From Aureibaculum luteum (GTDB lineage Bacteria; Bacteroidota; Bacteroidia; Flavobacteriales; Flavobacteriaceae): a stretch of DNA of 64,000 nt. The first letter of the stretch is position 1. Every line of letters starts with the position of its first letter. The translations under genes were made by a program, and so were the position numbers. Under the pieces are notes generated by a model. That model searched no databases and was not told where the DNA came from. It was given only the letters and a program-made list of their open reading frames with translations. The stretch covers positions 1,134,639-1,198,638 of the forward strand of contig NZ_QRGD01000001.1 of NCBI RefSeq assembly GCF_003449015.1, written 5' to 3'. Positions 23,753-41,530 of this stretch are shown here, in pieces.

Positions 23753-23807
23753 TTTCGTTTTGTTTCGTTTTGTTGCAAAAATTGTATATTTGGAATTCAA
23801 AACGAAA
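23753..23807 (+). promoter_or_regulatory. glp promoter overlapped by DeoR-type operator repeats
   Basis: Two tandem copies of TTTCGTTTTG (23753-23762 and 23763-23772) and one inverted copy CAAAACGAAA (23798-23807) bracket a perfect flavobacterial -7 element TATATTTG (23785-23792). TTTTG at 23758-23762 could be the -33 element with a 22-bp spacer. TTTCGTTT-type sites are common for DeoR-family repressors, and the repressor gene is divergent from this point. A repressor here would block polymerase on glpDKF and could control its own gene. Confidence 0.7.
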
Positions 23808-23826
23808 AATTTAAAAGAATATAGCG

Positions 23827-25395
23827 GTGAGTTTATATCAAAGAGAAACATTAATTAAGCAATTACAAACAAACAAAAAATGGGATGTAATTATTATTGG
23901 AGGAGGAGCAACAGGTTTAGGAATTGCCTTAGACAGTGTCACTCGGGGTTATAAAACGCTTTTGTTAGAGCAAATTGATTTTGCAAAAGGCACATCGAGT
24001 CGGAGTACGAAACTGGTTCATGGAGGTGTGCGTTATTTGGCTCAAGGAAATATAGATCTAGTTAGAGAGGCTTTATATGAAAGAGGTCTTATGCTAAAAA
24101 ATGCTTCACATTTGGTCAGTAACCAATCTTTTATAATTCCAAATTATAATTTATGGGATAGATTAAAGTATACGGTAGGTTTAAAATTATATGATTTTTT
24201 AGCAGGTAAATTAAGTTTTGGTAAATCTGTTGGCATTAGTAAAAAGAAAACGACATTAAGGTTAACCACGATAAAACCGGACAAATTAAAAGGTGGAGTT
24301 GTTTATCACGATGGGCAATTTGATGATTCTAGATTAGCTATTAATATTGCTCAAACTAGTATTGAAAAAGGAGCCACAATACTAAATTATTGTAAGGTAA
24401 CTGGTTTGTTGAAAGATGATGAAGGTATTGTAAATGGAGTTATTGCACATGATATTGAAACGGATAAATCCTACAAATTAAATGGAAGAGTTGTTATAAA
24501 TGCAACTGGAGTTTTTACGGATGAAGTTTTACAAATGGATGATAACAAGGCAAAAAATATTGTCCGCCCTAGTCAGGGAATCCACTTGGTTTTAGAGAAG
24601 TCTTTTTTACCAGGAAATGATGCTATTATGATTCCGAAAACAGATGATGGTAGAGTCTTATTTTTGGTGCCTTGGCATGATAAAGTTGTAGTAGGCACAA
24701 CAGACACATTGTTAGATAGCCATAGTCTAGAACCAAAACCACTGGAGAAAGAAGTAGATTTTATTATAGATACCGCAAATAGGTATTTGAATAAAAAAGT
24801 AAGTAAAAAAGATGTATTGAGCATTTTTGCAGGGTTAAGACCTTTAGCGGCTCCAAAAGATAATTCCGAAAAGACCAAAGAAATATCTAGAAGTCATAAG
24901 ATTATAGTTTCAAGTTCAGAATTAATAACCATTACTGGAGGCAAGTGGACTACCTATAGAAGAATGGCACAAGACACGGTAAACAAAGCCATTAGTCTTG
25001 GTAAATTACCCAATGAAACTTGTAAAACAAAGGATCAACTTATACATGGAGCTTTAGAAAATGTGGACAGATCTAATCACTTATACATTTATGGTACAGA
25101 TCAGGTTCATATTGAGCAACTAATTAAAAACGAACCTGAATTAGGTGAAAAATTGCATCCAAAACTAAGCTTTACTAAAGCAGAAGTGGTTTGGGCTGTA
25201 AGAAATGAAATGGCAAGAACTATAGAAGATGTGCTGGCTAGACGTGTACGAATGTTGTTTTTAGATGCTAGGGCTGCAATTAGTTCGGCACCATTGGTTG
25301 CAGAAATATTAGCAAAAGAATTAGGAAAAGATAAGGTTTGGGAGCGTCAACAAATAGATGATTTTACAACCACTGCGAAACAATACGTATTATAA
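23827..25395 (+). CDS. glpD: Aerobic glycerol-3-phosphate dehydrogenase GlpD
   Basis: 522-aa FAD enzyme that oxidises sn-glycerol-3-phosphate to dihydroxyacetone phosphate and passes electrons to quinone at the inner membrane. The N-terminal FAD fold IIIGGGATGLGIALD, the GTSSRSTKLVHGGVRYL signature, and the C-terminal DAO_C helical domain (from about 390; EVVWAVRNEMARTIEDVLARR) are clear. The start is GTG at 23827, 20 bp after the last operator repeat. First gene of the glpDKF operon. Confidence 0.95.
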   Translation: MSLYQRETLIKQLQTNKKWDVIIIGGGATGLGIALDSVTRGYKTLLLEQIDFAKGTSSRSTKLVHGGVRYLAQGNIDLVREALYERGLMLKNASHLVSNQSFIIPNYNLWDRLKYTVGLKLYDFLAGKLSFGKSVGISKKKTTLRLTTIKPDKLKGGVVYHDGQFDDSRLAINIAQTSIEKGATILNYCKVTGLLKDDEGIVNGVIAHDIETDKSYKLNGRVVINATGVFTDEVLQMDDNKAKNIVRPSQGIHLVLEKSFLPGNDAIMIPKTDDGRVLFLVPWHDKVVVGTTDTLLDSHSLEPKPLEKEVDFIIDTANRYLNKKVSKKDVLSIFAGLRPLAAPKDNSEKTKEISRSHKIIVSSSELITITGGKWTTYRRMAQDTVNKAISLGKLPNETCKTKDQLIHGALENVDRSNHLYIYGTDQVHIEQLIKNEPELGEKLHPKLSFTKAEVVWAVRNEMARTIEDVLARRVRMLFLDARAAISSAPLVAEILAKELGKDKVWERQQIDDFTTTAKQYVL

Positions 25396-25448
25396 CTCAA
25401 AATAATTTTTAACATACAAACTACACTAACTAATTAAATTCACTAATT

Positions 25449-26963
25449 ATGGGAAAATACATACTGGCCTTAGATCAAGGGACAACAAGCTCCAGAGCTA
25501 TTGTTTTTGATAAGAAAGGAAATATAATCTCAATTGCTCAAAAAGAATTTACACAATATTTTCCAAAACCTGGATGGGTAGAACATGATCCAACTGAAAT
25601 ATGGTCAACCCAGGCGGGCGTTGCTACCGAAGCCATTGCTAAAAAAGGATTAAATATAGAAAACATTGCTGCTATTGGGATCACTAACCAGCGTGAAACG
25701 GTTGTGGTTTGGGATAAGAATACAGGTCAACCCGTTTATAATGCAATTGTTTGGCAAGATAAACGTACTTCAGATTATTGTGATGAATTAAAGCTTCAGG
25801 GTAAATCTGAAATGATACGAGAAAAAACAGGATTGGTTATTGATTCTTATTTTTCGGGTACGAAAGTAAAATGGATTTTAGATAATGTTGATGGAGCAAG
25901 AAAAAAGGCCGAAGATGGTGATTTGATTATGGGTACCATAGACACCTGGTTAATTTGGAATTTTACCAAAGGTAATCAGCATGTTACAGATGTGACCAAT
26001 GCGTCAAGAACATTGTTGTTTAATATAAATACGATGGATTGGGATGATGAGTTACTAGAATTGTTGAGCATACCTAAAAGCATGCTACCTGAGGTAAAAC
26101 AGTCGAGTGAGGTTTATGGACACACACAATCTACTTTTTATAACTCAAAAATTCCAATTGCAGGAATTGCTGGAGATCAACAAGCGGCTTTGTTTGGTCA
26201 AATGTGTACGAAGCCAGGCATGGTTAAGAATACGTATGGCACAGGATGTTTCATGTTAATGAATATTGGTGAAAAACCTATTGTTTCCAAAAATAATTTA
26301 CTTACAACAGTTGCGTGGAAAATCAATGGAAAAACAACATATGCATTTGAAGGAAGTGTTTTTATTGCTGGTGCTGTTGTACAATGGTTACGAGATGGTT
26401 TAAAGATAATTCGTATGTCTGCTGATGTAGAAAATTTGGCAAGCTCTGTTGAGAGTTCAGAAGGGGTTTATTTTGTTCCTGCATTTGCTGGGCTAGGAGC
26501 TCCGCATTGGAATCAGCATGCTCAGGGTACAATTTTCGGATTAACAAGAGGAAGTACAGATGCTCATGTTGCACGAGCCGCATTAGAATCTATAGCCTAT
26601 CAAACCATGGACATTTTAAAAGCGATGGAAGCCGATTCGGGTATTACGATTCAGGAATTGCGTGTAGATGGTGGAGCAACAGTGAACAATATGTTAATGC
26701 AATTTCAAGCTGACGTTCTAAATACAATAACCGTTCGTCCAAAAGTGGTGGAAACAACAGCGATGGGAGCTGCTTTCTTGGCAGGCTTGGCAGTTGGGTA
26801 TTGGGAAAGTCCTGATGAAATTCAAGAAATTTGGCAAACAGATATGCATTTTAAACCTACTGAAGATAGAAAACAAATTAAGGAAGAAATAAAAGGTTGG
26901 TATAGGGCTATTGATGCATTAGAGTATTGGACAAGAAATAATTCAGAAACAAAAAATAATTAA
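25449..26963 (+). CDS. glpK: Glycerol kinase GlpK
   Basis: 504-aa FGGY-family kinase that phosphorylates glycerol to glycerol-3-phosphate with ATP, trapping glycerol brought in by GlpF. Signatures: [48 protein letters not shown], catalytic region [14 protein letters not shown], and [19 protein letters not shown]. The length is almost identical to well-studied GlpK proteins. It lies 53 bp after glpD and 1 bp before glpF. Confidence 0.97.
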
Positions 26964-26964
26964 C

Positions 26965-27702
26965 ATGACGCCATTTGTAGCAGAAATTATCGGAACTTTT
27001 TTCCTTATTCTTTTAGGAGGAGGGGTAGTAGCTAATGTTGTTTTAGAAAAAACCAAATCAAATGACCAAGGTTGGATGGTGATTACAACCGCCTGGGGTT
27101 TGGCTGTTTTTGTAGGTGTTGTAGTGGCAGGTCCATACAGTGGGGCTCATTTGAATCCGGCGGTAAGTATTGGATTGGCTGTTGCAGGAAAATTTGAATG
27201 GAATTTGATTCCACTTTACGCTTTAGGTCAGTTTATCGGTGCTATGTTAGGTGCTGTAGGTGTTTGGTTAATTTATAAAGATCATTTTGACGTTACGGAA
27301 GATGGAGAGGCTAAGCGAGCTATTTTTTGTACGGCTCCAGCGATTAGGAATCCTAAATCAAATATTATTTCGGAAATCATAGGCACTTTTGTATTGGTAT
27401 TCGTAGTACTTTATTTTACCAATGCATCATTAACAGAAACAGAAACTCCAATCGGTCTAGGTTCTCTTGGAGCATTACCTGTTGCCTTTTTAGTTTGGGT
27501 TATTGGTTTGTCACTTGGTGGCACTACAGGTTATGCAATAAACCCAGCACGTGATTTGGGGCCTAGAATTATACACGCTATTTTACCAATTAAAAATAAG
27601 GCTTCTAATGATTGGGGTTATGCATGGATTCCTGTTGTCGGACCTATAATTGGTGCCTCATTAGCAGGTTTACTGATGTTGGTGTTATCATCAAGCTTAT
27701 AG
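26965..27702 (+). CDS. glpF: Glycerol facilitator / aquaglyceroporin GlpF
   Basis: 245-aa inner-membrane channel of the MIP family with six membrane segments and two half-helices carrying the NPA motifs (SGAHLNPAVSIG and GYAINPARDLGP). Asp after the second NPA-Arg (NPARDLGP) is the residue that marks glycerol-type rather than pure water channels. Its start lies 1 bp after the glpK stop, so it is the last gene of glpDKF. No terminator is obvious before the regulator gene at 27823. Confidence 0.93.
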   Translation: MTPFVAEIIGTFFLILLGGGVVANVVLEKTKSNDQGWMVITTAWGLAVFVGVVVAGPYSGAHLNPAVSIGLAVAGKFEWNLIPLYALGQFIGAMLGAVGVWLIYKDHFDVTEDGEAKRAIFCTAPAIRNPKSNIISEIIGTFVLVFVVLYFTNASLTETETPIGLGSLGALPVAFLVWVIGLSLGGTTGYAINPARDLGPRIIHAILPIKNKASNDWGYAWIPVVGPIIGASLAGLLMLVLSSSL

Positions 27703-27822
27703 TTGTTAGTGGGTTTCTCTACTGTTTAGAATAAATGCTAATCTTCTGTTTAAGGATATCGGACTTTCTTTTTTATCTTTACACAAAATGTCTAAAAAGA
27801 AACGACAGTTCAAACACTAAAC

Positions 27823-30621
27823 ATGAAAGTCATACAACTACTTTTATTGTTATTATTACCATTGACATTTTTTGGTCAAGAAACGCCTCCTATATTAAAA
27901 TTTTCATCAAACACATACCAAGCAGAAAATCAAAATTGGGCAGTTACGCAAAATGCTGAAAATTTTATTTTTGTTGCTAATAACGAAGGTTTATTAGAGT
28001 ACAATGGTGCAAAATGGATGCTTTATCCATCACCAAATAATACTATAATGCGGTCAATATTAGCTGTAAAAGAAAAAATATTTACAGGGGCTTATATGGA
28101 GTTCGGGTTTTGGAAAAGAAATGACGAAGGATTATTAATTTACACTTCATTGTCCGACAAAATAAAGTCTGAATTAATAGAGGATGAAAATATCTGGAAT
28201 ATTAAGGCTTTTGATAATTGGGTAATTTTTCAATCTTATGACCGATTGTATTTTTACAATGTAGAGAATAATGAACTCAATTACTTTACAGATAAGGGTA
28301 ATTTCTATCGCATTTTTGAAATAAATAACACTATTTATATTTTTAAAAATAATGGAAATTTATACAAACTCGAAATAGGTAAGGAGGTATTGATTGCACA
28401 TATTCCAGATAGCTATAAGGTCAAATTTGTTTTAAATATTTTTGAAAGTGATAATGAAGATCTCATTTTAGTAACCCGAAATAAGGGTTTTTTTAAAATT
28501 GATAAAGAAGTTGTTACCAAATGGTCTATTTCGGGTGATCATATTTTTGATGAATTTCAAATTTACAGTGGAGTTCAACTCTTGGATAAAACCTATATGT
28601 TAGGAACAATTTCTGCTGGAATTATTCATTTATCTCAAGATGGTGAATTAATTAACACTATTAATCAGTCTAATGGTCTTAGTAACAATACAATTTTAAA
28701 CTTGTTTGAAGATGCTTCAGGTAACGTGTGGTCTGCCTTAGATAACGGAATAGATTGTTTAAATATGCAATCTTATATTCGAGAATATAATGATAATGGG
28801 GGTACGGTTGGTACAACCTACAGTTCAATTATACATAATGGGAAATTGTATGTAGGTACCAATCAAGGCTTATTTTATAAGTCAACTTTGGTTAATGAAC
28901 CCTTAAAACTAGTAGAAGGAACAAAAGGACAGGTTTGGTCGCTTTTTGTGTATGAAAATGAGTTGCTTTGTGGTCATACATCAGGCACTTTTCTTATTAA
29001 AAACAATACGTCGCAACAAATATCTGATATTCCTGGTACTTGGAATTTTAGGGAGTTTCCAAATCATCCAGAACTATTATTACAAGGCCATTATTCGGGT
29101 ATGAGTATACTCGAAAGAAAGAATAATAAATGGGTCTTAAAGAATAAGATTAAGGGATTTGAAAACTCAGCTCGTTTTTTCGAAATTTTGGGTAATTCAG
29201 AAATATGGATTAATCATGAATACAAAGGAGTTTATAAATTATGGTTAAACAATAATTACACTGCTTTTGAAAAAGTAATTCTTTTTTCTGATGTGCCGAA
29301 GGGCAAAGGCTCAAGTATTTTAAAATATGATGACGACTTGTTGTATAGCTATCAAGAAGGTGTTTTTAAGTTAACTGGTTCGGGAGAAAATTTTGTAAAA
29401 GATACGGCACTGAGTAAGTTAATAGTTAAAGACGAGTATATTTCTGGTAAACTGGTTAAGGATAGTAAACAGCGGTTGTGGTCGTTTAATAAATCGAGTA
29501 TTAATTATGCTGAAAAGGGGCCAATTCCTGGTAAAATTGAAATAAAATCAATTCCCATTCAGAACTATTGGAGAAATACTACGGTTAGCTTTGAAAACAT
29601 TACGCACTTAAAAGATAATTTATATATTATTGGAAAAACAAATGGGTATATTTTAGTTGATTTGGATAAATATAATAAAACACCTCATAAAATATTTCTA
29701 AATGATATTATTGTTAAGGCGAAGGATAGTGTTTTTAATGTTTTAGTGAATGAAAATGGTCATTTTAACTATAATGAAAATGTTTTACAATTCAATTTTA
29801 GTACACCAAGATATAATAAATATGAATTTGTAAATTATCAATACAAATTAGATAATTACCAAGCGGACTGGAGTAATTGGACAGCATCACCAAACGTAAT
29901 CTTTGATAAATTACCATTTGGTAGTTATACCTTCACGGTTAGATCCAAAGTAGGTAATCAAGTTTCAGATAATACTGTTAATTATACTTTTGAAATAGCA
30001 AGACCCACATATTTATCAAATTTTGCAATTGGAGGGTATCTTTTATTGATACTGATTTCTGGATTTATAACGCACCGCTTGTATAAAAGACATTATAAAA
30101 AACAGCACTTAGAACTTATCGAACAAAATCAACGTCAGATAGAAGTTAATAGAATAAGTAATGAACAAGAGGTAATAAAGCTGAGAAATGAAAAATTAAA
30201 TCAAGAAATAGAGAGTAAAAACAGAGAATTAGCCATTTCAACAATGAGTATTGTTAAAAGAAATGAAGTATTACGAAAGGTAAAGAAAGAGTTGAAAAGT
30301 AACATTGGCTTGTCTAAGGATGATGATGTATTTAAATTGATTGATAAAAACTTAGAAAACACCAAAGATTGGAATTTATTTAAGGATGCTTTTAATAGTG
30401 CTGATAAAGATTTTCTTAAAAGAGCAAAAAGCTTGTACCTTGATTTAACACACAATGATTTAAAATTTTGTGCTTATTTAAGATTAAATTTATCTTCAAA
30501 AGAGATTGCTCCTTTGCTAAATATTTCAGTAAAAAGTGTTGAGGTTAGGCGATATCGATTGCGAAAGAAAATGAAACTAAAACATGAAATTAACCTCACA
30601 GATCATATTTTGGATATTTAG
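27823..30621 (+). CDS. Periplasmic propeller sensor with LuxR-type DNA-binding domain
   Basis: 932-aa one-component membrane regulator. Signal peptide or anchor (IQLLLLLLLPLTFFGQ), a large propeller built of two-component-regulator repeats (about 25-610), a Y_Y_Y domain (about 660-725; YKLDNYQADWSNWTASP), one transmembrane helix (about 735-755; IGGYLLLILISGF), a coiled coil (760-830), and a C-terminal LuxR-type HTH (about 875-930; LSSKEIAPLLNISVKSVEVR). It resembles hybrid two-component sensors but has no kinase or receiver domain. Placed directly before susC/susD, it is likely the glycan-responsive activator of this locus. A hairpin (GGTCTTTTAAAAGACC) follows its stop. Confidence 0.85.
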   Translation: MKVIQLLLLLLLPLTFFGQETPPILKFSSNTYQAENQNWAVTQNAENFIFVANNEGLLEYNGAKWMLYPSPNNTIMRSILAVKEKIFTGAYMEFGFWKRNDEGLLIYTSLSDKIKSELIEDENIWNIKAFDNWVIFQSYDRLYFYNVENNELNYFTDKGNFYRIFEINNTIYIFKNNGNLYKLEIGKEVLIAHIPDSYKVKFVLNIFESDNEDLILVTRNKGFFKIDKEVVTKWSISGDHIFDEFQIYSGVQLLDKTYMLGTISAGIIHLSQDGELINTINQSNGLSNNTILNLFEDASGNVWSALDNGIDCLNMQSYIREYNDNGGTVGTTYSSIIHNGKLYVGTNQGLFYKSTLVNEPLKLVEGTKGQVWSLFVYENELLCGHTSGTFLIKNNTSQQISDIPGTWNFREFPNHPELLLQGHYSGMSILERKNNKWVLKNKIKGFENSARFFEILGNSEIWINHEYKGVYKLWLNNNYTAFEKVILFSDVPKGKGSSILKYDDDLLYSYQEGVFKLTGSGENFVKDTALSKLIVKDEYISGKLVKDSKQRLWSFNKSSINYAEKGPIPGKIEIKSIPIQNYWRNTTVSFENITHLKDNLYIIGKTNGYILVDLDKYNKTPHKIFLNDIIVKAKDSVFNVLVNENGHFNYNENVLQFNFSTPRYNKYEFVNYQYKLDNYQADWSNWTASPNVIFDKLPFGSYTFTVRSKVGNQVSDNTVNYTFEIARPTYLSNFAIGGYLLLILISGFITHRLYKRHYKKQHLELIEQNQRQIEVNRISNEQEVIKLRNEKLNQEIESKNRELAISTMSIVKRNEVLRKVKKELKSNIGLSKDDDVFKLIDKNLENTKDWNLFKDAFNSADKDFLKRAKSLYLDLTHNDLKFCAYLRLNLSSKEIAPLLNISVKSVEVRRYRLRKKMKLKHEINLTDHILDI

Positions 30622-30643: not shown

Positions 30644-30714
30644 AACCATACTTTGCCACTACATTTCTATTTTAATTGTCTTTTTTAAATTTTACGCAAA
30701 ATATTCATTATTCG

Positions 30715-30919: not shown

Positions 30920-33900
30920 ATGATGTTAAAATTAATTAGAAAAAGGACAAACCTAGCCTTGCTCATGTTAGCTTTTGTAATAAGCGGCTTTACTGCATTG
31001 CAGGCTCAAAAAACAGTAATAGGTACTGTGCTAGACGAAACAGGAACTCCGTTGCCAGGTGCTTCGGTGATTGTAAAAGGAACAAGTAACGGTACATCTA
31101 CCGATTTTGACGGAAAATTTTCGTTAAATGTGGCTGATGATGCTCAAACATTGCTTATTTCCTTTATTGGTTATCTAACCAAAGAGGTGGCTGTAACTGA
31201 CGAAACACTTTCTGTATCGTTACAGTCTGATGTAAACGCCTTAGATGAGGTAGTGGTTACAGCATTAGGTATAAAAAGGGAAGAAAAAGCCCTTGGGTAC
31301 GCTGTTCAAACAATTGATGGTGAAGATTTGCAAAAAGTCTCTGGAGTTGACGTGGCGACTTCCCTTACTGGTAAAGTAGCAGGGTTATTAGTTAATAACT
31401 CCACAGATTTTAATGTAGCTCCTGAGCTTCTCATTAGAGGTGAAGAACCTTTATTGGTAATTGACGGAATTGCCTATGAAAATAAAACCCTTAGCGATAT
31501 TTCTTCTGAAGATGTGGAATCAATGAGTGTCTTAAAAGGTGCTACGGCTTCTGCTCTATATGGTTTTCGTGGTGCGAATGGTGCTATTTTAATTACAACG
31601 AAAAGTGGTAGTTCCGGTGATGAAGGATTTACGGTTGATTTGACCACAAACACCATGTTTGCTGCAGGCTATTTGGCAATTCCAGAAAAACAAGGTGTCT
31701 ATGGTCGTGGTACTAACAATACCTATAATTTAAACGCGGATCAATCTTGGGGTACCGCAATGGACGGATCCATTCAAAATCAATGGGATCCTATTGCAAA
31801 AGAATTTAGGGATTTTGAATATCTCCCAATAGGAACAAACAATTTTGAAAACTTTTTAGAACAAGGTTATATTACCAACAATAATATCAGTTTGGCATAT
31901 AAAAAAGAGAATGTTTCTTTGAGAAGTTCGGTCAATTGGATAGAACAAAAAGGGCAATACCCTAATGCTAAATTAGATAAATATACCTATAGTTTTGGTG
32001 GGGATATTAATTTGGATAAATTTCAATTGAATTCAAACTTATCGTATTCAAAAAGTGAGTCACCAAATAAAGGTTCTAACGGTTATACTTCTTATGACCC
32101 TATGTACTCTTTATTAATATGGAGTCCTTCAGATTGGGATGTACTCGACTATAAAGATAATTATTGGCTTGAACCAGGCGTGCAGCAAAATAATCATTAT
32201 GGATATGATTATGATGCGGACAGATATAGAGGAAAAAATCAAAACAACCCATATTTTGACAGGTATGAAAAAACAAATGAAGTATCACGAGATATTTTTA
32301 ATGCAGACCTTTCTATGAGTTATGAAATTACCGATTGGTTAAAGGCTACAGTTCGTTCTGGATTGGATTTTTATGTTGACCGAGGACAGTTAAGAGTTTC
32401 TCAGGGTTCATATACCTCTACGGGTAATACTGCCATTCCTGGCAACCTTTATACATGGAATGGTACCAGAACAGGAGCTTATGTAACAGGCAAAACACAA
32501 GGCTTTAGTATCAATAACGATTTATTGTTAACAGGTAATAAAAAATTTGTAAATGATAAATTTGAGGTAGATTATCTTGTAGGTGGTACCATATTTTACA
32601 AACGGAATGACAACTTAAATGCTCAAACAATAGGTGGTATTTCCATTCCCGGATTTTTCTCACTAAATGCTTCGGTAGAACCTGCAGCTGTTGGAGAAAG
32701 TACACAAACCCAACAAGTAAATTCAGCATTCGGACGTTTGGCTTTATCATGGAACAAATTAATTTATGTAGAAGCCACAGGACGTAATGACTGGAATACT
32801 GCATTAGCAGGTCCAGATGTGCCGGATTCAAAAAGGTCTTATTTCTACCCTTCATTTTCTGGTAGTTTTGTTGTATCTGAATTGTTGCCTGAATCAACTA
32901 AAGATTGGTTAGATTTATTTAAAATAAGGAGTTCATGGACGCAATCAAAAACACCAGCAGGTATTTATGATATTAATAGCGTTTTCTCTATTACTCCAGG
33001 CACATGGAATGATTTAAATGGGGCAAGTGCTGCTAGCAGTTTGTATGATTTACAAACTATCCGCCCACAAAGTGCTGATACCTATGAATTTGGATTTCAA
33101 GCCATGTTCTTAAAAAAACGTTTGACCGTAGATCTAACTTACTACAATAAACATCAGTACGATTATTTAAAATATGCCAATATATCTGATGCATCTGGTT
33201 ATGCCACAAAGTATATTAATACTGATGAAGAAATAGACCGCAAAGGTTGGGAAGTAGCACTTACTGCCAACCCAATAAGGACAGAAGATTTAGAATGGGA
33301 TCTAGGGTTTAACTGGTCAACGTATAAGCGTGTATATGCAAAGCTTGACGAAACGTATTCTACAGTACAGCCTTGGGTGAAGGTAGGAGAACGAGTAGAT
33401 CATTATGTAGGTAGGGAGTTTATGACAGATCCTGCCACAGGGCAATATGTATATAGTAATGGTAGAATCCAAAAAGATCCCTTTAGTTCGGTATTCGGAT
33501 ATTCTGATCCTGATTGGATATGGGGTGTGAATTCTACTTTACGTTATAAAGATTTTAGTTTATTTGTATCTTTTGATGGTGTAGTAGGTGGTTTGGCAAG
33601 TACTAGAACTGAAAGTTATATGTGGCAGTCTGGTGGACATCCTGATTCTGTTACCCCAGAAAGAGCAGCAGACGTGGCTAATCCTGGTTCTACAAACTAT
33701 ATTGGTGATGGTGTTATGGTTGTATCTGGTGAGGTTAGTTATGATACTGATAATAATATTATATCAGACACACGTGTTTTTGCAACAAATGATGTAGCAA
33801 CTACCTATGTACGAGCTGTAAAAGATTTACATGGAAGTAGTGCATGGGGAGGTACTGGAACATCTGCTGACGCTTTCGCAAGAACATACTTTAAATTACG

Positions 33901-34102
33901 TGAAATATCTTTAACGTATAACGTACCTACTAAATTTTTAAGTAGTTGGGGACCTATTAAAAGGGCATCCATAAGTTTTGTAGGACAAAATGTACTGTTA
34001 TCAGCTAAAGATTTTAAATATTCTGACCCCGATAACCGTAATGAAGACTTTGCTGATCCATCTGTTAGGTATCTTGGAGGTAATATTAGATTCACATTTT
34101 AA
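30920..34102 (+). CDS. SusC/RagA-family TonB-linked outer-membrane transporter
   Basis: 1060-aa outer-membrane glycan importer. Signal peptide (to about 29, ending ALQAQ), CarboxypepD_reg-like domain (about 30-110; VIGTVLDETGTPLPGASVIVKGT), the SusC hallmark LDEVVVTALGIKREEKALGYAVQ, a plug domain (LIRGEEPLLVIDGIAYENK and VLKGATASALYG), and a long barrel ending in YLGGNIRFTF. SusC forms the channel under a SusD lid, energised by TonB. The susD gene starts 12 bp downstream. Enzymes encoded next suggest an oligomeric beta-glucan ligand. Confidence 0.95.
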   Translation: MMLKLIRKRTNLALLMLAFVISGFTALQAQKTVIGTVLDETGTPLPGASVIVKGTSNGTSTDFDGKFSLNVADDAQTLLISFIGYLTKEVAVTDETLSVSLQSDVNALDEVVVTALGIKREEKALGYAVQTIDGEDLQKVSGVDVATSLTGKVAGLLVNNSTDFNVAPELLIRGEEPLLVIDGIAYENKTLSDISSEDVESMSVLKGATASALYGFRGANGAILITTKSGSSGDEGFTVDLTTNTMFAAGYLAIPEKQGVYGRGTNNTYNLNADQSWGTAMDGSIQNQWDPIAKEFRDFEYLPIGTNNFENFLEQGYITNNNISLAYKKENVSLRSSVNWIEQKGQYPNAKLDKYTYSFGGDINLDKFQLNSNLSYSKSESPNKGSNGYTSYDPMYSLLIWSPSDWDVLDYKDNYWLEPGVQQNNHYGYDYDADRYRGKNQNNPYFDRYEKTNEVSRDIFNADLSMSYEITDWLKATVRSGLDFYVDRGQLRVSQGSYTSTGNTAIPGNLYTWNGTRTGAYVTGKTQGFSINNDLLLTGNKKFVNDKFEVDYLVGGTIFYKRNDNLNAQTIGGISIPGFFSLNASVEPAAVGESTQTQQVNSAFGRLALSWNKLIYVEATGRNDWNTALAGPDVPDSKRSYFYPSFSGSFVVSELLPESTKDWLDLFKIRSSWTQSKTPAGIYDINSVFSITPGTWNDLNGASAASSLYDLQTIRPQSADTYEFGFQAMFLKKRLTVDLTYYNKHQYDYLKYANISDASGYATKYINTDEEIDRKGWEVALTANPIRTEDLEWDLGFNWSTYKRVYAKLDETYSTVQPWVKVGERVDHYVGREFMTDPATGQYVYSNGRIQKDPFSSVFGYSDPDWIWGVNSTLRYKDFSLFVSFDGVVGGLASTRTESYMWQSGGHPDSVTPERAADVANPGSTNYIGDGVMVVSGEVSYDTDNNIISDTRVFATNDVATTYVRAVKDLHGSSAWGGTGTSADAFARTYFKLREISLTYNVPTKFLSSWGPIKRASISFVGQNVLLSAKDFKYSDPDNRNEDFADPSVRYLGGNIRFTF

Positions 34103-34114
34103 TTAAAAAGAACG

Positions 34115-35644
34115 ATGAAAAATTTAAAATATATTTTTATAGCAATCATTTCTTCAATCATTGTGTTTTCTTGTAGCAATTTTGAAGATCTAAATACTGA
34201 TCCTGATAGTTCAACTACTGTTTCATCAGAAATGTTGGCTACGCAGGTATTGAAAGATACATACAGGTTCTGGAATCCAAATCCAAATGATTTTATTTCT
34301 GGAAACCTATTTAACAAACACATCGCTGTACTTGAAACGGATGCAAATGCAAACCAATATTATTATTCGTTTTATCCATTTGGAAGTTTTGGGGCCTATA
34401 CAAGATTAACAGACCTTCAAAGAATGGTAGAATTTGCTGAGGGAAGTCCAACTCAATCGTCTTATAGAGGATTAGCTAAGTTTATGAAAGCAATTTATGG
34501 GCTTTCTTCAACCTTAGATATGGGAGATGTTCCTTATTCTGAAGCAGGTATGGCCGAAGAAGGAAATGTTACCCCAATATATGACAAGCAAGCTGATGTT
34601 TTTGTATCAATCTTAAATGACCTTCAAGAAGCGGAAGCTTATTTTGCGGAAGGAAATAATTTTGATGGTGATTTTATGTTTGATGGTGATGCTTCGAAAT
34701 GGCAAAAATTATGTAATGCTATGCAGTTAAAAGTACTGCAAACCATAAGTAAACAGATTACTGATGCACAAAAAGCACGTTTTGCAGCTATTGTAAATAC
34801 CGGTAATTTAATGGAAGGCAACGGTGACAACCTTAAATTGGTTTATAGTGAAAATCCGAACGCTACGCATCCATTTTTTAATGGAGAAAATAGAAGGATT
34901 ACAACTGCTATTTCAAAATTGGCTGTTGATGCATTAAAAACAATGAAAGACAGAAGGTTGTTCTATTTTGCAAATCCAGCACAAGCTTTGATAGATGATG
35001 GTCTATCCGAATCTGATTTTGAAGCCTATGAAGGTGCTTTGACCTCAGAAGCTTCAGAAGTATTGGCCCTTAACAATGATAATGGCGAGTACTCGTTACT
35101 AAACGATCGGTATGTTATTTATATGGATGGAGAGCCAATGTTAAGATTCACTTATGCAGAACAATGTTTTATTATTGCTGAGGCAATTGAAGAAGGTTGG
35201 GTAACAGGAGATGCACAAGAATACTATGAAAATGGTGTCAAAGCAATGCTCAAATATTACATGGATTTACCATACACGGCTGACCATGTTCATGGAATGG
35301 CTATTGATCAAAATTATATTGATAATTATTTTACGGATGACGCTTCTTATGCAGTTGGTGGAACAAAAGAAGATCGTTTAAAACAAATATTGACCCAAAG
35401 ATGGTTGATAGATTTCTTTCAAGGTAATGGAGGTAATTATGCTCAATTCTTACGTACAGGCTTACCAGAATATCCTTTGGACCCTTCTACCAGTTTAAAT
35501 CCTGATGATACTTCTGTTTATCCTAAACGTTGGAAATATCCAGAATCAGAACAAACCACGAATCCTGAAAATTATCAAAAAGCTATTGATGAACAATACG
35601 CAGGTTTTGATGGAATTAATCAAGTTCCTTGGTACTTACAGTAA
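34115..35644 (+). CDS. SusD/RagB-family glycan-binding lipoprotein
   Basis: 509-aa surface lipoprotein that forms the lid on the SusC channel and captures oligosaccharides. The signal ends in a lipobox (SIIVFSC), the N-terminus has the SusD phrase FEDLNTDPDSSTTVS, and the body is helical with TPR-like segments (RGLAKFMKAIYGLSSTLDMG, QAEAYFAEG-like EAEAYFAEGNNF). The C-terminal NPDDTSVYPKRWKYPESEQ loop is typical of the SusD-like_2 subgroup. Co-transcribed with susC. Confidence 0.93.
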   Translation: MKNLKYIFIAIISSIIVFSCSNFEDLNTDPDSSTTVSSEMLATQVLKDTYRFWNPNPNDFISGNLFNKHIAVLETDANANQYYYSFYPFGSFGAYTRLTDLQRMVEFAEGSPTQSSYRGLAKFMKAIYGLSSTLDMGDVPYSEAGMAEEGNVTPIYDKQADVFVSILNDLQEAEAYFAEGNNFDGDFMFDGDASKWQKLCNAMQLKVLQTISKQITDAQKARFAAIVNTGNLMEGNGDNLKLVYSENPNATHPFFNGENRRITTAISKLAVDALKTMKDRRLFYFANPAQALIDDGLSESDFEAYEGALTSEASEVLALNNDNGEYSLLNDRYVIYMDGEPMLRFTYAEQCFIIAEAIEEGWVTGDAQEYYENGVKAMLKYYMDLPYTADHVHGMAIDQNYIDNYFTDDASYAVGGTKEDRLKQILTQRWLIDFFQGNGGNYAQFLRTGLPEYPLDPSTSLNPDDTSVYPKRWKYPESEQTTNPENYQKAIDEQYAGFDGINQVPWYLQ

Positions 35645-35786
35645 CATAAAATGTTTTAAGTTTCATATTATATTATTTGAGTTAGTTAGTTTATTGAATC
35701 TAGGGGCAGCTAGTCTGCCCTTAGATTTTTTCTTAATTTTTAGTGTGAATAAAGTACATTACAAATCAATATAAAAAGTATAAAAA

Positions 35787-37364
35787 ATGCGTTTTTTATT
35801 TATTACCTTAGTAGCTGCAAGCTTACTTGCTTGTAGCAATAACATGAAAGAAAACATTTATTTTGCAGACAATATAGTAGTTGCTCATCGTGGAGCATGG
35901 AAAGCAGAACAGCTTCCAGAAAACTCGATTGCTTCGCTAAAACATGCTATAGAATTAAAATGTACAGGCTCAGAGTTTGATGTACATATGACCGCTGATA
36001 GTGTTTTAGTTATCTATCATGATGCTCATTTTAATGACTTACTAATTAAAGATACTACTTACGAAGAATTGGCAAAATTTAAACTTTCCAACGGAGAGGT
36101 TTTACCAACGTTAAGAGACTACATTCTTGCAGGAATGGAAAATAATACAACCACTGGATTAGTATGTGAGATTAAACCTAATAAAGACAAGGAATATAAT
36201 CTTAAAATGACGGATAAAGTTCTTGCTTTAGTCAAAGAATTAAAAGCGGAATCATATATCCATTCTTATATTAGTTTTGGGTATGATATCCTTCTTAGGA
36301 TTCTTGAACTTGATCCAAAGGCCCAAACGCAATATTTAAATGGGACCAAAACGCCGCAACAATTGAAAGATGATGGTATTTCTGGATTAGATTATCATTT
36401 AAAAGTATTTAAAAAAAATGCGGAGTGGATACAAAGTGCCAAAGAACTGGGGCTAACATTGAATGCTTGGACGGTAAATTCTCAAGAAGATTTAGATTGG
36501 TTAATAGCAAATGAATTTGATTATATTACTACTAACGAACCTGAGTTGTTATTTGATAGAATTAAGGTGAGTCCTGTCAGCAATGGTTATTCATTGGTTT
36601 GGAGTGATGAGTTCAATTATAAAGGGAAACCTGATAGCTTAAAATGGACTTATGATTACGGTTTTATTGCAAATCAGGAAAAACAATATTATACGGACAG
36701 CCTTAAAAATGCAAGAGTTGAAGAAGGTCATTTAATCATAGAAGCCCACAAGGAAGATATTTCGAATAAAGATTTTAAAAATAAGAAATTGGACAACACT
36801 TGGGCTGCGTATAAATCTAAAATTAAAACAGCATCATACACCTCAGCAAGGATAAAAACCGAGGATCTTGCAAAATGGAAATACGGCCGTATTGAGGCGA
36901 GGGCAAAATTGCCAAAAGGACGTGGCATGTGGCCGGCAATTTGGATGTTGAGCGAATCAAGAAAAGAACTAGGTTGGCCAGAAAGTGGAGAAATTGACAT
37001 TATGGAACATGTGGGGTATGATAATGATTCCATTCACGGAACAATACATACCAAGGCGTATAATCATACAATAGGTACTGAAAAAGGTAAAACTATTTTT
37101 ATAGAAAACCCGAATGATGAATTTCATGTTTTCGCTATTGAGTGGACACCTGAAAAAATAGATTTTATGTTAGATGACGTCGTTTATAATCACATAGAAA
37201 ATGAGCATAAAACTACTGCAGAATGGCCTTTTGATCAAAAATTTTACCTAATTTTGAACGTTGCTGTCGGTGGCGGTTGGGGTGGTCAAAAAGGAATAGA
37301 TGATAGTATTTTCCCGCAACAAATGGTGGTGGATTATGTGAGGGTTTATCAAGAGAAAAAGTAA
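35787..37364 (+). CDS. Fusion lipoprotein: glycerophosphodiester phosphodiesterase + GH16 beta-glucanase
   Basis: 525-aa protein with two catalytic domains. The lipobox (AASLLACSNN) suggests a surface or periplasmic lipoprotein. Residues 28-255 are a GDPD TIM barrel with the expected residues: HRG near the start, ENS, the E-x-D pair in GSEFDVHMT, His in LVIYHDAHF, and CEIKP. Residues 262-523 are a GH16 jelly-roll with catalytic motif GEIDIMEHVG (Glu402, Asp404, Glu407) and GWPESGEID, as in laminarinase-like GH16. GDPD frees glycerol-3-phosphate from glycerophosphodiesters; GH16 cuts internal beta-1,3(4)-glucan bonds. Both sets of catalytic residues look intact. The joined activities suggest a phosphoglycerol-bearing glucan (inference). 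Confidence 0.92.
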   Translation: MRFLFITLVAASLLACSNNMKENIYFADNIVVAHRGAWKAEQLPENSIASLKHAIELKCTGSEFDVHMTADSVLVIYHDAHFNDLLIKDTTYEELAKFKLSNGEVLPTLRDYILAGMENNTTTGLVCEIKPNKDKEYNLKMTDKVLALVKELKAESYIHSYISFGYDILLRILELDPKAQTQYLNGTKTPQQLKDDGISGLDYHLKVFKKNAEWIQSAKELGLTLNAWTVNSQEDLDWLIANEFDYITTNEPELLFDRIKVSPVSNGYSLVWSDEFNYKGKPDSLKWTYDYGFIANQEKQYYTDSLKNARVEEGHLIIEAHKEDISNKDFKNKKLDNTWAAYKSKIKTASYTSARIKTEDLAKWKYGRIEARAKLPKGRGMWPAIWMLSESRKELGWPESGEIDIMEHVGYDNDSIHGTIHTKAYNHTIGTEKGKTIFIENPNDEFHVFAIEWTPEKIDFMLDDVVYNHIENEHKTTAEWPFDQKFYLILNVAVGGGWGGQKGIDDSIFPQQMVVDYVRVYQEKK

Positions 37365-37457
37365 TGAAGACCTCAGAATACGATTTACTAAGTCTGGTAA
37401 ATTAGCTGTTTAATTATAGTAAATAAAAGATATTGTTTAAATATCACATTTAGACTT

Positions 37458-38270
37458 ATGAAGAAAGCATCAAAATATTTAATTATACTTTCCATATTTA
37501 CAATTTATGCGTGTAATTCATCTGATAGTAAAGATGATAAAGAAATTGAAAAAGAATATCAATTGGTTTGGGAAGATGAATTTAATGAAGAAGGAAATCC
37601 TGATGCTACAAAATGGAATTATGAAAATGGTTATGTTAGAAATAATGAAAAACAATTCTATACGGAAAATTTAAAAAATGCCAGAGTTGAAAACGGTTAT
37701 TTAGTATTAGAAGCCGTTAAAGAAGAAATTGAAGGTTATAATTATTCGAGTGGCAGTATTACTACTAGTAATTTGGTGGCATGGCAATATGGAAAAATCG
37801 AAATAAAAGCAAAATTACCCAAAGGAGTTGGCATATGGCCTGCAATTTGGATGTTGGGCGAAAATTGGAAACAAGTTAGCTGGCCTAAATGCGGAGAAAT
37901 TGACATTATGGAGCATGTTGGCTTCACCAAAGATTCTATCTACGGAACCGTGCATACCGAAGCCTATAATCATAATATAGGAACTGCAGTTGGTAAAGCT
38001 GTTTTTATTAATAATCCTTATGATCAGTATCATATTTATGCCGTTGAATGGACTTCAAAAAAAATAGATTTTCTGTTGGATAATGATGTTTATCATTCCT
38101 TTAAAAATGAAAACAAAACGGATGCTGAATGGCCTTTTGACCAAAAATTTCACTTAAAATTAAATATTGCTGTTGGTGGTGGTTGGGGTGGTACACAAGG
38201 TATTGATGATAGTATTTTTCCACAACAAATGCTAGTAGATTATGTTCGTGTTTATCAAAAAACAAATTAA
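37458..38270 (+). CDS. GH16 family beta-glucanase lipoprotein
   Basis: 270-aa secreted glycoside hydrolase. Lipobox in FTIYACNSSD, a short acidic linker, then a single GH16 domain (about 35-268) with catalytic motif GEIDIMEHVG (Glu147, Asp149, Glu152). It is closely similar along its length to the GH16 half of the preceding gene (shared AWP-type segments GxWPAIWML, FDQKF, AVGGGWGG, QGIDDSIFPQQM, VDYVRVYQ), so the two arose by tandem duplication. Likely endo-beta-1,3-glucanase. It stops 4 bp before the phosphatase gene. Confidence 0.93.
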   Translation: MKKASKYLIILSIFTIYACNSSDSKDDKEIEKEYQLVWEDEFNEEGNPDATKWNYENGYVRNNEKQFYTENLKNARVENGYLVLEAVKEEIEGYNYSSGSITTSNLVAWQYGKIEIKAKLPKGVGIWPAIWMLGENWKQVSWPKCGEIDIMEHVGFTKDSIYGTVHTEAYNHNIGTAVGKAVFINNPYDQYHIYAVEWTSKKIDFLLDNDVYHSFKNENKTDAEWPFDQKFHLKLNIAVGGGWGGTQGIDDSIFPQQMLVDYVRVYQKTN

Positions 38271-38274
38271 AAAA

Positions 38275-39108
38275 ATGAAAAAAATTCTGCTTATTATTAT
38301 TCTAGTAATGTCATATTCAATGACAAATGGTCAAAGTTTAAAAATAATGACTTACAACATTCGATTAGATGTAGCTTCTGATGGAGAAAATGCTTGGGAG
38401 CATCGCAAGGAGTTTTTAACCAATCAGATAAAATTTTACAGTCCTGATGTCATGGGTACACAAGAAGGTCGCCCTAATCAGATAAAGTATATGAAAGAAA
38501 CCTTAACTGAATACAAAATGATTGGCCACGGTAGAGATGGCGGTGATAATGGTGAGTATTCGGCTATTTTTTACAATACAAATAAAGTAAAAGTAGAACA
38601 AGATAGCACGTTTTGGTTATCTAAAACTCCTGAAAAGCGATCAAAAGATTGGGATGCTGCTATTGAAAGAATATGTACTTATGGTTTATTTACGGATTTA
38701 GAATCTCTTGAAAAAGTATGGATAGTGAATACGCATTTAGATCATATTGGTCAAGAATCGAGAGTTAATAGTATGAAAATTATCGAAGCACATATTAATA
38801 CGATAAACACAGACAATTATCCTGTAATTTTAATGGGTGATTTTAACGTGGAGCCTGATAATGAATTGATAACCAATTTAAAACAAAACTTTTATGATAC
38901 TAGAGATCAAAGCAAACTAAAATTTGGTCCTGTAGGTACTTTTAATGCCTTTAAATTCAACGAACCTGTAACAAGACGAATCGATTATATTTTTGTGTCT
39001 AAAACTCCCAATGTTAAAGTTGAAAAATATGCTATTTTAAGTAATTCAAAAGATTTAAAGTATCCTTCTGATCATTTACCAGTTTATGTAAAGTTAGAAC
39101 TAGAGTAA
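38275..39108 (+). CDS. Secreted endonuclease/exonuclease/phosphatase-family enzyme
   Basis: 277-aa exported EEP-superfamily enzyme, a metal-dependent phosphodiesterase or phosphatase fold. Signal peptide MKKILLIIILVMSYSMTNGQ; catalytic elements MTYNIRLD (Asn), GTQEGRP (Glu), NTHLDHIG (His), MGDFNVEPD (Asp, Asn), RRIDYIF (Asp) and SDHLPVYV (His) are all present. I start at 38275; the longer frame back to 38242 overlaps the preceding GH16. Within a glucan locus it may act on phosphate diesters or monoesters of the glycan, not on nucleic acid, but the substrate cannot be read from the sequence. Confidence 0.88.
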   Translation: MKKILLIIILVMSYSMTNGQSLKIMTYNIRLDVASDGENAWEHRKEFLTNQIKFYSPDVMGTQEGRPNQIKYMKETLTEYKMIGHGRDGGDNGEYSAIFYNTNKVKVEQDSTFWLSKTPEKRSKDWDAAIERICTYGLFTDLESLEKVWIVNTHLDHIGQESRVNSMKIIEAHINTINTDNYPVILMGDFNVEPDNELITNLKQNFYDTRDQSKLKFGPVGTFNAFKFNEPVTRRIDYIFVSKTPNVKVEKYAILSNSKDLKYPSDHLPVYVKLELE

Positions 39109-39144
39109 AACCACTAAGCCAAACATCCAAGTAATTTTAAAACC

Positions 39145-41478
39145 ATGAAAAAAATTTATTTATTATTTCTTATCCTTCCCTCTATATTAATATTTCAGAG
39201 TTGTAATAACACTAGTAGTAATGCCAAAGCAACTAAAAATGATTTAAATCAAGATGCGAATATTGAACGGAAAGTTGATTCTGTTTTAGCCTTAATGAAT
39301 TTGAATGAGAAAATTGGGCAAATGGTTCAGTATGCAGCTAGTTGGGATGTAACAGGTCCAGCTTCATCAGAAGGAAATAAATTCAAAGAAGAAAAATTAA
39401 AAAAAGGTGAAGTTGGTTCAATGCTTAATGTTACGTCTGTAAAAGCAGTTCGTGAAGCACAAAAATTAGTAATGGATAATTCGCGATTAAAAATCCCTCT
39501 TATTTTTGGTTATGATGTAATTCATGGTTACGAAACTATATTCCCTATTCCTTTGGGAGAAAGTGCTAGTTGGGATTTAGAGATAATTCGTAAATCAGCT
39601 GAAGTTGCAGCAATTGAAACTTCTGCTGCAGGTGTACAATGGACCTTTGCTCCGATGGTAGATGTTTCTAGAGATGCTCGTTGGGGTCGCATAATGGAAG
39701 GTGCAGGTGAAGATCCGTATTTAAGTTCAAAAATAGGTGTGGCTAGAATCAATGGTTTTCAAGGAGACGATTTGTCAAAAAATAATACCATAGCCGCCTG
39801 TGCGAAACATTTCGCAGGTTACGGATTTGGAGAAGCGGGTAGAGATTATAATACTGTAAATATTGGAGAACACGAATTGCATAACGCTGTTTTACCTCCA
39901 TTTAAAGCTGCTGCTGAGGCAGGTGTTGCCACTTTCATGAATTCTTTTAATGAAATAGATGGTATTCCGGCAACAGCTAGCAAAAAATTACAAAGAGACC
40001 TATTAAAAGGCGAGTGGGCTTGGAATGGGTTTGTGGTTTCTGACTGGGGTTCAATTGCAGAAATGATTGCTCATGGCTATGCAAAAGATAAGAAACATGC
40101 CGCTGAACTTGCTTTAAATGCAGGTAGTGATATGGATATGGAGTCTTATGCTTACGAAGCTGAGTTAGAGAAACTTTTAGAAGAAAATAAAGTAAAGTTA
40201 AGTGATATTGATGATGCCGTAAAGCGAATTTTACGCGTAAAATTTCAATTAGGTTTATTTGATGATCCTTATAAATATTGTGATGAAGAACGAGAAAAAA
40301 ATGAAATTTATACTAAAGAACATTTAGAAATAGCTCGTGATGTAGCTAAAAAATCAATCGTTTTATTAAAGAACGATACTGTTAAAACTAAAAAATCGGC
40401 ATTGCTACCTTTATCTAAATCTGTAAAGAGCATTGCTGTTATCGGTCCTTTGGCTGATGATAAAGACACACCATTAGGAAACTGGCGAGGAAAAGGCAAA
40501 TATAATTCTGCAGTTTCTTTATTAGAAGGTGTAAAAGCTGCCGCCGGTGACGATACTAAAATTTATTACGAAAAAGGTATCGAATTGACATCAAAAACGG
40601 TTGCACCCGGAGAAAATCAATTCTTACACCTTATGGAATTTAATACAACAGATAGATCAGGAATTTCAGCTGCTGTTAATGCTGCAAAAAAGGCAGACAT
40701 TGTTTTATTGGCCATTGGTGAAAATGCCTTTCAAACAGGAGAAGGAAGAAGCCAGACAAAAATTGGTTTTGCAGGCTTGCAACAAGAGTTACTTGAAGCG
40801 GTTTATGCCGTTAATAAAAATGTAGTTATTGTGCTTATGAATGGTCGCCCAATGGATATTACTTGGGCTGCAGAAAATGTGCCTACAATTTTAGAATGTT
40901 GGCATTTAGGATCGCAGTCGGGTTTTGCTATAGCAGATGTTTTATTTGGTGATTATAATCCGTCAGGAAAATTACCTGTTTCTTTTCCATACAATGTGGG
41001 TCAAGAGCCTTTGTATTACAATCAAAAAAGCACAGGAAGACCTATGAGTACCCAAGTAACCTATTCTGGCTATAACGATGCTCCTAAAGTAGCTTTATAT
41101 CCATTTGGACACGGCTTAAGTTATACTAACTTTTCTTATGGCAATGTGAGCTTAGATAAAGCAGAAATGGCTAAGGATGGTGAAATACAAGTATCAGTTA
41201 ATGTAACCAATAATGGTACTAGAGATGGTGAAGAGGTTGTTCAACTTTATATTAGAGATTTAGTAGGAAGCCTTACACGTCCAATAAAAGAACTAAAAGG
41301 ATTTGAAAAAATAATGCTTAAAGCAGGTGAAAGCAAAGTAATAAACTTTACAATAGATACCGAAACACTCCAATTTTATACTGCAAATAACAAATGGGAG
41401 GTAGAGCCTGGTGATTTTAATGTTTGGATTGGTGGTAGTTCTACAACTAAGAATATGGCTGAGTTTGTAGTTAACTAA
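39145..41478 (+). CDS. GH3 family beta-glucosidase, BglX-like
   Basis: 777-aa exo-acting glycoside hydrolase that releases glucose from the non-reducing end of beta-gluco-oligosaccharides. Lipobox in ILIFQSCNN; GH3 N-terminal TIM barrel with KHFAGYG and nucleophile region VVSDWGS (Asp300); C-terminal alpha/beta sandwich (from about 410; IAVIGPLADDKD); and a fibronectin-like C-terminal domain (from about 690; EVVQLYIRDLVGSLTRPIKELKGF). The length matches BglX. It follows the EEP gene by 36 bp and ends the locus at a strong terminator. Confidence 0.94.
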   Translation: MKKIYLLFLILPSILIFQSCNNTSSNAKATKNDLNQDANIERKVDSVLALMNLNEKIGQMVQYAASWDVTGPASSEGNKFKEEKLKKGEVGSMLNVTSVKAVREAQKLVMDNSRLKIPLIFGYDVIHGYETIFPIPLGESASWDLEIIRKSAEVAAIETSAAGVQWTFAPMVDVSRDARWGRIMEGAGEDPYLSSKIGVARINGFQGDDLSKNNTIAACAKHFAGYGFGEAGRDYNTVNIGEHELHNAVLPPFKAAAEAGVATFMNSFNEIDGIPATASKKLQRDLLKGEWAWNGFVVSDWGSIAEMIAHGYAKDKKHAAELALNAGSDMDMESYAYEAELEKLLEENKVKLSDIDDAVKRILRVKFQLGLFDDPYKYCDEEREKNEIYTKEHLEIARDVAKKSIVLLKNDTVKTKKSALLPLSKSVKSIAVIGPLADDKDTPLGNWRGKGKYNSAVSLLEGVKAAAGDDTKIYYEKGIELTSKTVAPGENQFLHLMEFNTTDRSGISAAVNAAKKADIVLLAIGENAFQTGEGRSQTKIGFAGLQQELLEAVYAVNKNVVIVLMNGRPMDITWAAENVPTILECWHLGSQSGFAIADVLFGDYNPSGKLPVSFPYNVGQEPLYYNQKSTGRPMSTQVTYSGYNDAPKVALYPFGHGLSYTNFSYGNVSLDKAEMAKDGEIQVSVNVTNNGTRDGEEVVQLYIRDLVGSLTRPIKELKGFEKIMLKAGESKVINFTIDTETLQFYTANNKWEVEPGDFNVWIGGSSTTKNMAEFVVN

Positions 41479-41497
41479 GTTTTATCTAATGAACATA

Positions 41498-41530
41498 AAA
41501 TGCCCGCTACATAGCGGGCATTTTTTATTT
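41498..41530 (+). terminator. Strong bidirectional terminator at the end of the glucan locus
   Basis: AAATGCCCGCT / AGCGGGCATTT with a 4-nt loop, followed by a T-run, 20 bp after the GH3 stop. The complementary strand also ends in TTTTATG, so it may serve the convergent dehydrogenase transcript too. Confidence 0.9.

Follow-up and report, generated by a model that had tools for sequence, protein, structure and literature searches.

A polysaccharide utilization locus with a GDPD-GH16 fusion beside glycerol genes in Aureibaculum luteum: a candidate system for phosphoglycerol-bearing beta-1,3-glucan

Introduction

What ties the catabolism of glycerol to the digestion of a beta-glucan? The question is raised by a locus in a 64,000-nucleotide stretch of the genome of the flavobacterium Aureibaculum luteum (contig NZ_QRGD01000001.1, positions 1,134,639 to 1,198,638; hereafter the window), in which the glycerol genes glpD, glpK and glpF (glpDKF) precede a polysaccharide utilization locus (PUL) that encodes a GDPD-GH16 fusion. 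A first-pass annotation of the sequence alone had combined the two gene sets into a candidate system for phosphoglycerol-bearing beta-glucans. As detailed here, the association is real and conserved in part of the Flavobacteriaceae. Its most economical reading, which we hold to be probable with some reserve, is a PUL that acts on a beta-1,3-glucan bearing phosphoglycerol and passes the glycerol set free to GlpF, GlpK and GlpD, and the genes suggest that several marine flavobacteria may possess such a feeding pathway for glycerol-phosphate-decorated glucans.

Results

Gene content of the locus

The plus strand carries all ten genes of the first-pass annotation, from glpD to the GH3 gene, in the order described there, and the annotation's statement that no break in the run exceeds 300 bp is borne out, the widest gap being the 298 bp between the regulator gene and susC. 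The features are as follows.

22876-23631, minus strand: glpR-like DeoR-family repressor gene, divergent from glpD (Pfam HTH_DeoR and DeoRC)
23632-23826: region between glpR and glpD, containing GlpR-like boxes (TTTCGYTT) and a TAnnTTTG element seen by eye
23827-25395, plus strand: glpD, FAD glycerol-3-phosphate dehydrogenase (DAO and DAO_C)
25449-26963, plus strand: glpK, glycerol kinase (NCBIfam GlpK, 839.8 bits against a cut-off of 498)
26965-27702, plus strand: glpF, glycerol facilitator of the MIP family (MIP 2.1e-44; TIGR00861 above cut-off)
27823-30621, plus strand: membrane sensor/regulator, a single protein combining a propeller/Y_Y_Y part with a LuxR-type helix-turn-helix (Reg_prop, Y_Y_Y, GerE)
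30920-34102, plus strand: susC, TonB-linked outer-membrane transporter (TIGR04056, 515 bits against 368)
34115-35644, plus strand: susD, SusD-like_2 lipoprotein (PF12771, 1.9e-61)
35696-35728, plus strand: hairpin with 14-pair stem and T-run between susD and the enzyme genes, a possible attenuator
35787-37364, plus strand: GDPD-GH16 fusion lipoprotein (Pfam GDPD 4.4e-24, GH16 5.1e-28)
37458-38270, plus strand: second GH16, lipoprotein (Pfam GH16; 63% identity with the fusion's GH16 half)
about 38275-39108, plus strand: secreted EEP-family phosphatase/phosphodiesterase (PF03372, 4.2e-16)
39145-41478, plus strand: GH3 exo-beta-glucosidase of BglX type (NF011678 BglX, 762 bits against 666)
41497-41524, both strands: terminator-like hairpin with 12-pair stem at the end of the locus

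The top NCBIfam model for glpD is glycerol-3-phosphate dehydrogenase, whose 305 bits fall short of the cut-off (360), and the Y_Y_Y score of the regulator lies slightly below the gathering score. With susC and susD homologues side by side, two co-directional GH16 genes, a GH3 gene and a dedicated Y_Y_Y/LuxR regulator, the run has the composition of a susCD-type PUL. The divergent glpR and the hairpins at 41497-41524 and 35696-35728 are additions to the first-pass annotation.

The GDPD-GH16 fusion and the EEP protein

The fusion protein (525 residues, 94% identical to its Aureibaculum flavum counterpart) matches PDB entries 7ww4 and 7wwc over its full length (E about 3e-152), and its AlphaFold model (mean pLDDT 92) superposes on 7ww4 with a TMq of 0.88, an rmsd of 1.4 and 49% identity. 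By their titles the entries show a multidomain beta-1,3(4)-glucanase, in 7wwc complexed with laminaritriose, a match that speaks for the beta-glucan substrate proposed in the first-pass annotation. Passages in one article (PMC12448869) describe 7WWC as lacking an accompanying publication and disagree on its source organism, one giving Pedobacter terrae and another Bacillus circulans.

Seven residues of the GDPD half (H34, R35, E63, D65, H78, E128 and K130) align with GDPD structure 2pz0 and are invariant in two alignments, A1 (11 rows) and A2 (21 rows: the window protein and 20 of the 21 fusions from the named collection described below, L101 excluded). Their His, Glu and Asp positions we take to be the catalytic and metal residues, and the half thus combines the Pfam domain with the residues expected of a GDPD enzyme. 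The GH16 half carries the motif GEIDIMEH at 401-408, in which all 21 rows of A2 share E402 and D404 and nearly all share E407; together with the fold, this ExDxxE pattern, presumably the GH16 catalytic motif, is that of a GH16 laminarinase. No further match was found when the own genome was searched with the GDPD half.

An alternative view gives the GDPD half no catalytic role, only one in binding or spacing, within a locus that just degrades laminarin, the adjacency to glp genes being inherited by chance. Laminaritriose is what 7WWC holds, and GH16 and GH3 enzymes are enough for laminarin; the expected catalytic and metal residues are nevertheless invariant in all 21 rows of A2, and we judge this view improbable. 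An inactive GDPD domain, named in the first-pass annotation as a ground for giving up its proposal, finds no support in the sequence, since the active-site residues are retained.

The best named PDB relative of the EEP protein is 4c1r, a mannosyl-6-phosphatase (2.5e-44), and by this match the protein resembles a sugar-6-phosphate phosphatase. Its gene directly follows the fusion in all 14 genomes of the family that encode one (in the window, after the second GH16). To free a sugar completely of a phosphodiester group, a phosphodiesterase has to be followed by a phosphomonoesterase. The identity shared by the two GH16 domains of the locus suggests a duplication within 35787-38270; in the other fusion genomes of the family neighbourhood set, no separate GH16 stands between the fusion and EEP genes.

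Linkage to glycerol genes in relatives

Conservation was assessed in 397 genomes of the family, the own genome counted, glpK (E up to 1e-150) being called linked when it lies within 20 kb of the fusion. The full fusion occurs in 14 genomes, 11 of which have glpK; eight are linked (G000, G119, G340, G070, G125, G134, G209 and G244), and G047, whose fusion sits on a 7.9-kb contig, cannot be assigned. Chance adjacency was rejected, as 0.10 linked cases are expected among the ten judgeable genomes (relatedness ignored). Against the view that an idle GDPD half merely inherited its neighbours by chance, these counts come with rearranged layouts, described below.

In a named collection (the best 80 of at least 587 loci), 21 loci contain the full fusion, ten of them assigned to Flavobacteriaceae by genus or label. 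Six of these ten have glpK-glpF upstream (L084, L085, L088, L090, L091 and L093), L100 is broken by contig ends, and no glpK was found in the genomes of L087, L089 and L092; L085 and L089 are apparently G119 and G173 of the family set.

Across the 14 other loci compared, genes outside the locus mostly have no or one homologue among the genes listed, the sulfatase beside glpR having five, and on this ground background synteny was rejected. Within the locus, homologues number seven for glpR, 8-9 for glpD, 13 for glpK, 14 for glpF, 12 for the regulator, 11 for EEP and nine for GH3; susC and susD have two or nine because two unrelated types exist.

As controls served the glp neighbourhoods L164-L203 (40 of 131 glpK genomes, about 20 kb each); most were picked for a high glpK score, and the others because their genome has a GDPD or GH16 match elsewhere. 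L184 and L185, whose genomes contain parts of the system, were dropped. GH16, EEP, GH3 and the regulator are absent from all 38 remaining neighbourhoods, three of which (L180, L188 and L192) have a weak, distant GDPD nearby and no fusion.

These counts bear on the possibility that two nutrients meet at the locus: the PUL would eat ordinary algal beta-glucan, the GDPD half would take lipid head groups from the same lysed cells, and glpDKF would use both glycerols, so that co-location mirrors the co-occurrence of lysis products. Lipid-derived glycerophosphodiesters are the classical targets of GDPD enzymes, and glpK is missing or unlinked in five of the 14 fusion genomes; linkage to a GDPD without neighbouring GH16 in G157, as well as the three fusion-free control loci, would also suit this explanation, which we nonetheless consider unlikely. 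Against it stand the union of GDPD and beta-glucanase in a single polypeptide in 14 of 397 genomes, in the window within a susCD locus, the glp genes that run on from PUL genes in G070 and G133, and the 38 controls.

Gene orders and the glpK tree

Three layouts were distinguished. Layout A, with glpR, glpDKF and then the PUL, is found in seven fusion genomes (the window, G119, G340, G134, G209, G244 and G125) and also in G157, where the GDPD is unfused. In layout B, glpDKF come straight after PUL genes: glpD of G070 (read from TTG) begins about 40 bp after GH3, and the order in G133 is unfused GDPD, GH2, two GH16, EEP, GH3, GH31, a GDSL protein, an unscanned open reading frame, glpD, glpK and glpF. 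A HAD-family phosphatase with, by eye, a signal-like start lies 8 bp past this glpF (L081 14785-15765). Layout C comprises minimal versions: G225, with glpK followed by glpF-GDPD-GH16 at 12-bp gaps, the GDPD and GH16 being two separate adjacent genes without fusion; two Arenibacter, with glpK-glpF-GH16; and G047, with glpDKF-GH3, the GH3 split over two frames. A search for glpR (1e-60) found it in none of eight genomes, G070 and G133 included, and in seven of seven positive controls.

A quick glpK tree of 47 rows leaves 16 of its 44 inner branches open. Apart from the loose case G094b, the rows of layouts A and B join G047 in one 20-row clade (97) that also holds five unlinked rows, and the C rows of G225 and Arenibacter fall outside it. 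At least nine changes between linked and unlinked states are required over the 47 rows. The tree thus lets shared ancestry account for part of the linkage and leaves rearrangement, loss or repeated recruitment for the rest; the concentration of much linkage in one glpK clade is also what a non-catalytic GDPD half with inherited neighbours would lead one to expect.

Regulation and transcription units

The 202-bp glpR-glpD stretch of the window contains four TTTCGYTT boxes, as many as in none of 1000 shuffles; the motif had been picked out of glpR-glpD regions by eye before it was scored on 29 regions. Six layout-A genomes were scored for this region (G244 and G157 were left out), and five are box-rich; that of G134, with one box matched by 120 of 1000 shuffles, is not enriched. 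A divergent glpR occupies the same position as in the window in G119, G134, G209, G244, G125, G157 and G340. Boxes of this kind are absent from the 16 glpF-regulator and regulator-susC gaps scored, and in the window they stand at glpD only. The first-pass description of a glycerol operon "joined" to a glucan locus holds as to adjacency; given the divergent glpR and the GlpR-like boxes at glpD, "joined" is to be read as neighbouring, and probably not as one operon.

The 120-bp gap between glpF and the regulator gene in the window has no terminator-like site. In the glpF-regulator gap, TATCTTTA elements were read by eye (unscored). Hairpins follow glpF in G157, L091 and L093 (by eye, unscored), for which reason the two gene sets of layout A are probably separate units, as the glp genes and PUL of the window probably are. 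Terminator-like sites number 10, against 8.7 in shuffles, which is not significant. Glycerol and glycan genes are contiguous in G070, G133 and G225.

Regulator matches in linked relatives are 44-77% identical, and the congener G340 has no Y_Y_Y/LuxR regulator match in its locus (40 kb covered). Its glpF-susC gap (L209 13723-13886) contains three GlpR-like boxes, a number matched by 1 of 1000 shuffles before correction for 29 regions; if confirmed, the glycan operon of this species would answer to the glycerol repressor GlpR. Before susC in linked relatives, inspection by eye revealed a recurrent sequence like TGTTCGTTTTTTATCGAGGTA together with ACCACGACA direct repeats, to which the Y_Y_Y/LuxR regulator may bind.

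Substrate and proposed pathway

The combination of GH16 and GH3 implies that the backbone is beta-1,3-glucan. The locus is unlikely to be specialised for plain laminarin, because the same genome has two further laminarin-type PULs (L204 8799-19757 on contig C46 and L205 8972-19789 on contig C47). These encode PKD-like proteins together with GH16 and GH3 or GH30 enzymes, the PKD matches being weak and that on C47 under the gathering score. Their presence also tells against a laminarin locus with an idle GDPD half. The likeness to osmoregulated periplasmic glucans drawn in the first-pass annotation did not hold for the E. coli type, which was rejected as a target: its backbone is beta-1,2 and would fit a laminarinase-like GH16 poorly.

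Glycerol-phosphorylated glucans occur in several Gram-negative bacteria, and a head group taken from phosphatidylglycerol would be sn-glycerol-1-phosphate. Analogy with lipoteichoic acid, as treated in a passage of PMC7086022, leads to the same head group. Passages of two articles assign such a glucan of Pseudomonas aeruginosa PA14 to ndvB (PMC2997053, PMC10237404), one of them suggesting an MdoB-like transfer from phosphatidylglycerol (PMC10237404). Since sn-glycerol-1-phosphate would be useless to GlpD until dephosphorylated, this stereochemistry would explain why EEP and GlpF/GlpK are encoded with no clear GlpT. Uptake of glycerol-3-phosphate by GlpT was rejected as a route, the best match in the genome scoring 73 bits against a cut-off of 632. 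A bacterial NdvB-type glucan as the diet is a possibility that we hold with little confidence.

From these genes we infer the following order of steps. The fusion, as a surface lipoprotein, would bind and cut the beta-1,3 backbone with its GH16 half and hydrolyse the glycerophosphodiester with its GDPD half, the decorated glucan being its predicted substrate; SusCD would take the oligosaccharides in. The secreted EEP protein may strip leftover phosphate from glucose-6, as the name of its relative 4c1r indicates for mannose-6-phosphate, or from glycerol, and GH3 would yield glucose. Glycerol would cross the inner membrane through GlpF; GlpK would then phosphorylate it, and GlpD would oxidise the product to dihydroxyacetone phosphate. 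Two regulators would be in charge, GlpR for glpDKF and the Y_Y_Y/LuxR sensor for the PUL.

A number of observations weigh against this pathway. The conserved linkage that the first-pass annotation called for is borne out in eight of ten judgeable fusion genomes and in several layouts; it fails in G349 and G361, where glpK (53-62% identical) lies on another contig or far off, in G153, G173 and G181, which have the fusion and no glpK at 1e-150 (3 of 14), and in all 11 named fusions outside Flavobacteriaceae (six Pedobacter, two Niabella, Saprospiraceae, Saccharicrinis and Aureispira), none of which has glp genes in the flank covered. Of 17 further genomes with a GDPD or GH16 match only, no more than four are linked (G157, G133, G225 and G094), G157 with no GH16 beside its unfused GDPD, and the remaining 13 are unlinked in the stretch covered (G146 being broken by contig ends). 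On the glpK tree, the closest relative of the two linked Arenibacter is L170 (G212), in which no glucan gene lies close by, and the share of the linkage that ancestry explains points the same way, as do the probable separation of transcription units, the hairpins after glpF and the crystallisation of the solved fusion homologue with plain laminaritriose. Lastly, a sulfatase with CSPSR accompanies the locus in nine relatives (G134, G209, G244, G125, G157, G070, L087, L111 and L094), with homologues also in G340 and G349; its presence in many relatives tells against a bacterial source and suggests that the glycan may carry sulfate, as a sulfated algal glucan would, and differ from the Pseudomonas type.

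This conserved sulfatase (e.g. L049 13890-15359, L111 15243-16709 and L210 1257-2738, the last outside the CSPSR set) stands beside or inside the loci of relatives and not that of the window.

The sulfatase and EEP, as signs of a substituted anionic glycan, would also agree with another phosphodiester on the beta-glucan, such as phosphocholine, phosphoethanolamine or a GPI-like or wall-linking group, to which the GDPD fold is tuned, with a glyceryl aglycone or glycolipid anchor as the glycerol source behind the glp linkage. GDPD-fold enzymes do vary in specificity; the canonical GDPD residues are retained in the fusion, however, and repeated linkage to glp genes most simply means a glycerol product, so that we regard such a group as quite unlikely. 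The phosphoglycerol-bearing beta-1,3-glucan remains our preferred substrate.

Comparison with known systems

The solved homologues 7WW4 and 7WWC (released 2023) share the two-domain GDPD-GH16 architecture of the window fusion, and no locus, glycerol or phosphodiester context was found for them. In the flanks covered, none of the named Pedobacter fusions is accompanied by a match to the window susCD or glp genes. Flavobacterial laminarin PULs consist of susCD, a PKD protein, GH16, GH3 and GH30; the window locus shares susCD, GH16 and GH3 with them and adds GDPD, EEP and adjacent glp genes, and no PKD was found in those of its proteins that were scanned. The yeast-mannan PUL to which 4c1r, presumably the mannosyl-6-phosphatase BT3783, belongs likewise has an EEP-fold phosphatase in a PUL for a phosphorylated glycan, but its backbone and other enzymes differ, and we know of no GDPD-GH16 protein or glp linkage in it.

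GlpQ systems offer another parallel, in that a glycerophosphodiesterase harvests a cell-surface polymer; the B. subtilis enzyme acts on teichoic acid and is specific for sn-glycerol-3-phosphate, according to a passage of PMC7086022. Unlike these systems, the window has GlpF/GlpK in place of GlpT, and its enzyme is fused to a glucanase within a susCD locus. In the open-licence literature of PubMed Central (subscription papers and bioRxiv lie outside this scope), neither a GDPD-GH16 PUL or its glycerol linkage nor a degradation pathway for glycerol-phosphorylated glucans was recognised among the matches listed.

If the pathway is true, it would supply a ready two-in-one glucanase and glycerophosphodiesterase, a genomic marker for tracing the marine recycling of glycerol-phosphorylated glucans, and an example of how a general glycerol module came to serve a glycan locus in more than one arrangement. 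More tentatively, it could be the first degradation route for that glycan class, point to a diet of bacterial necromass and not of algae, and place the glycan operon of one congener under GlpR.

Exchange of the susCD pair

Comparison of the window with the A. flavum locus (L084) reveals a susCD cassette swap within an otherwise conserved locus (window 31129-35673, L084 5368-9885). The flanks are 91% identical in DNA, and the swap covers susC beyond its first ~208 bp and the whole of susD, the replacement pair being without detectable DNA similarity.

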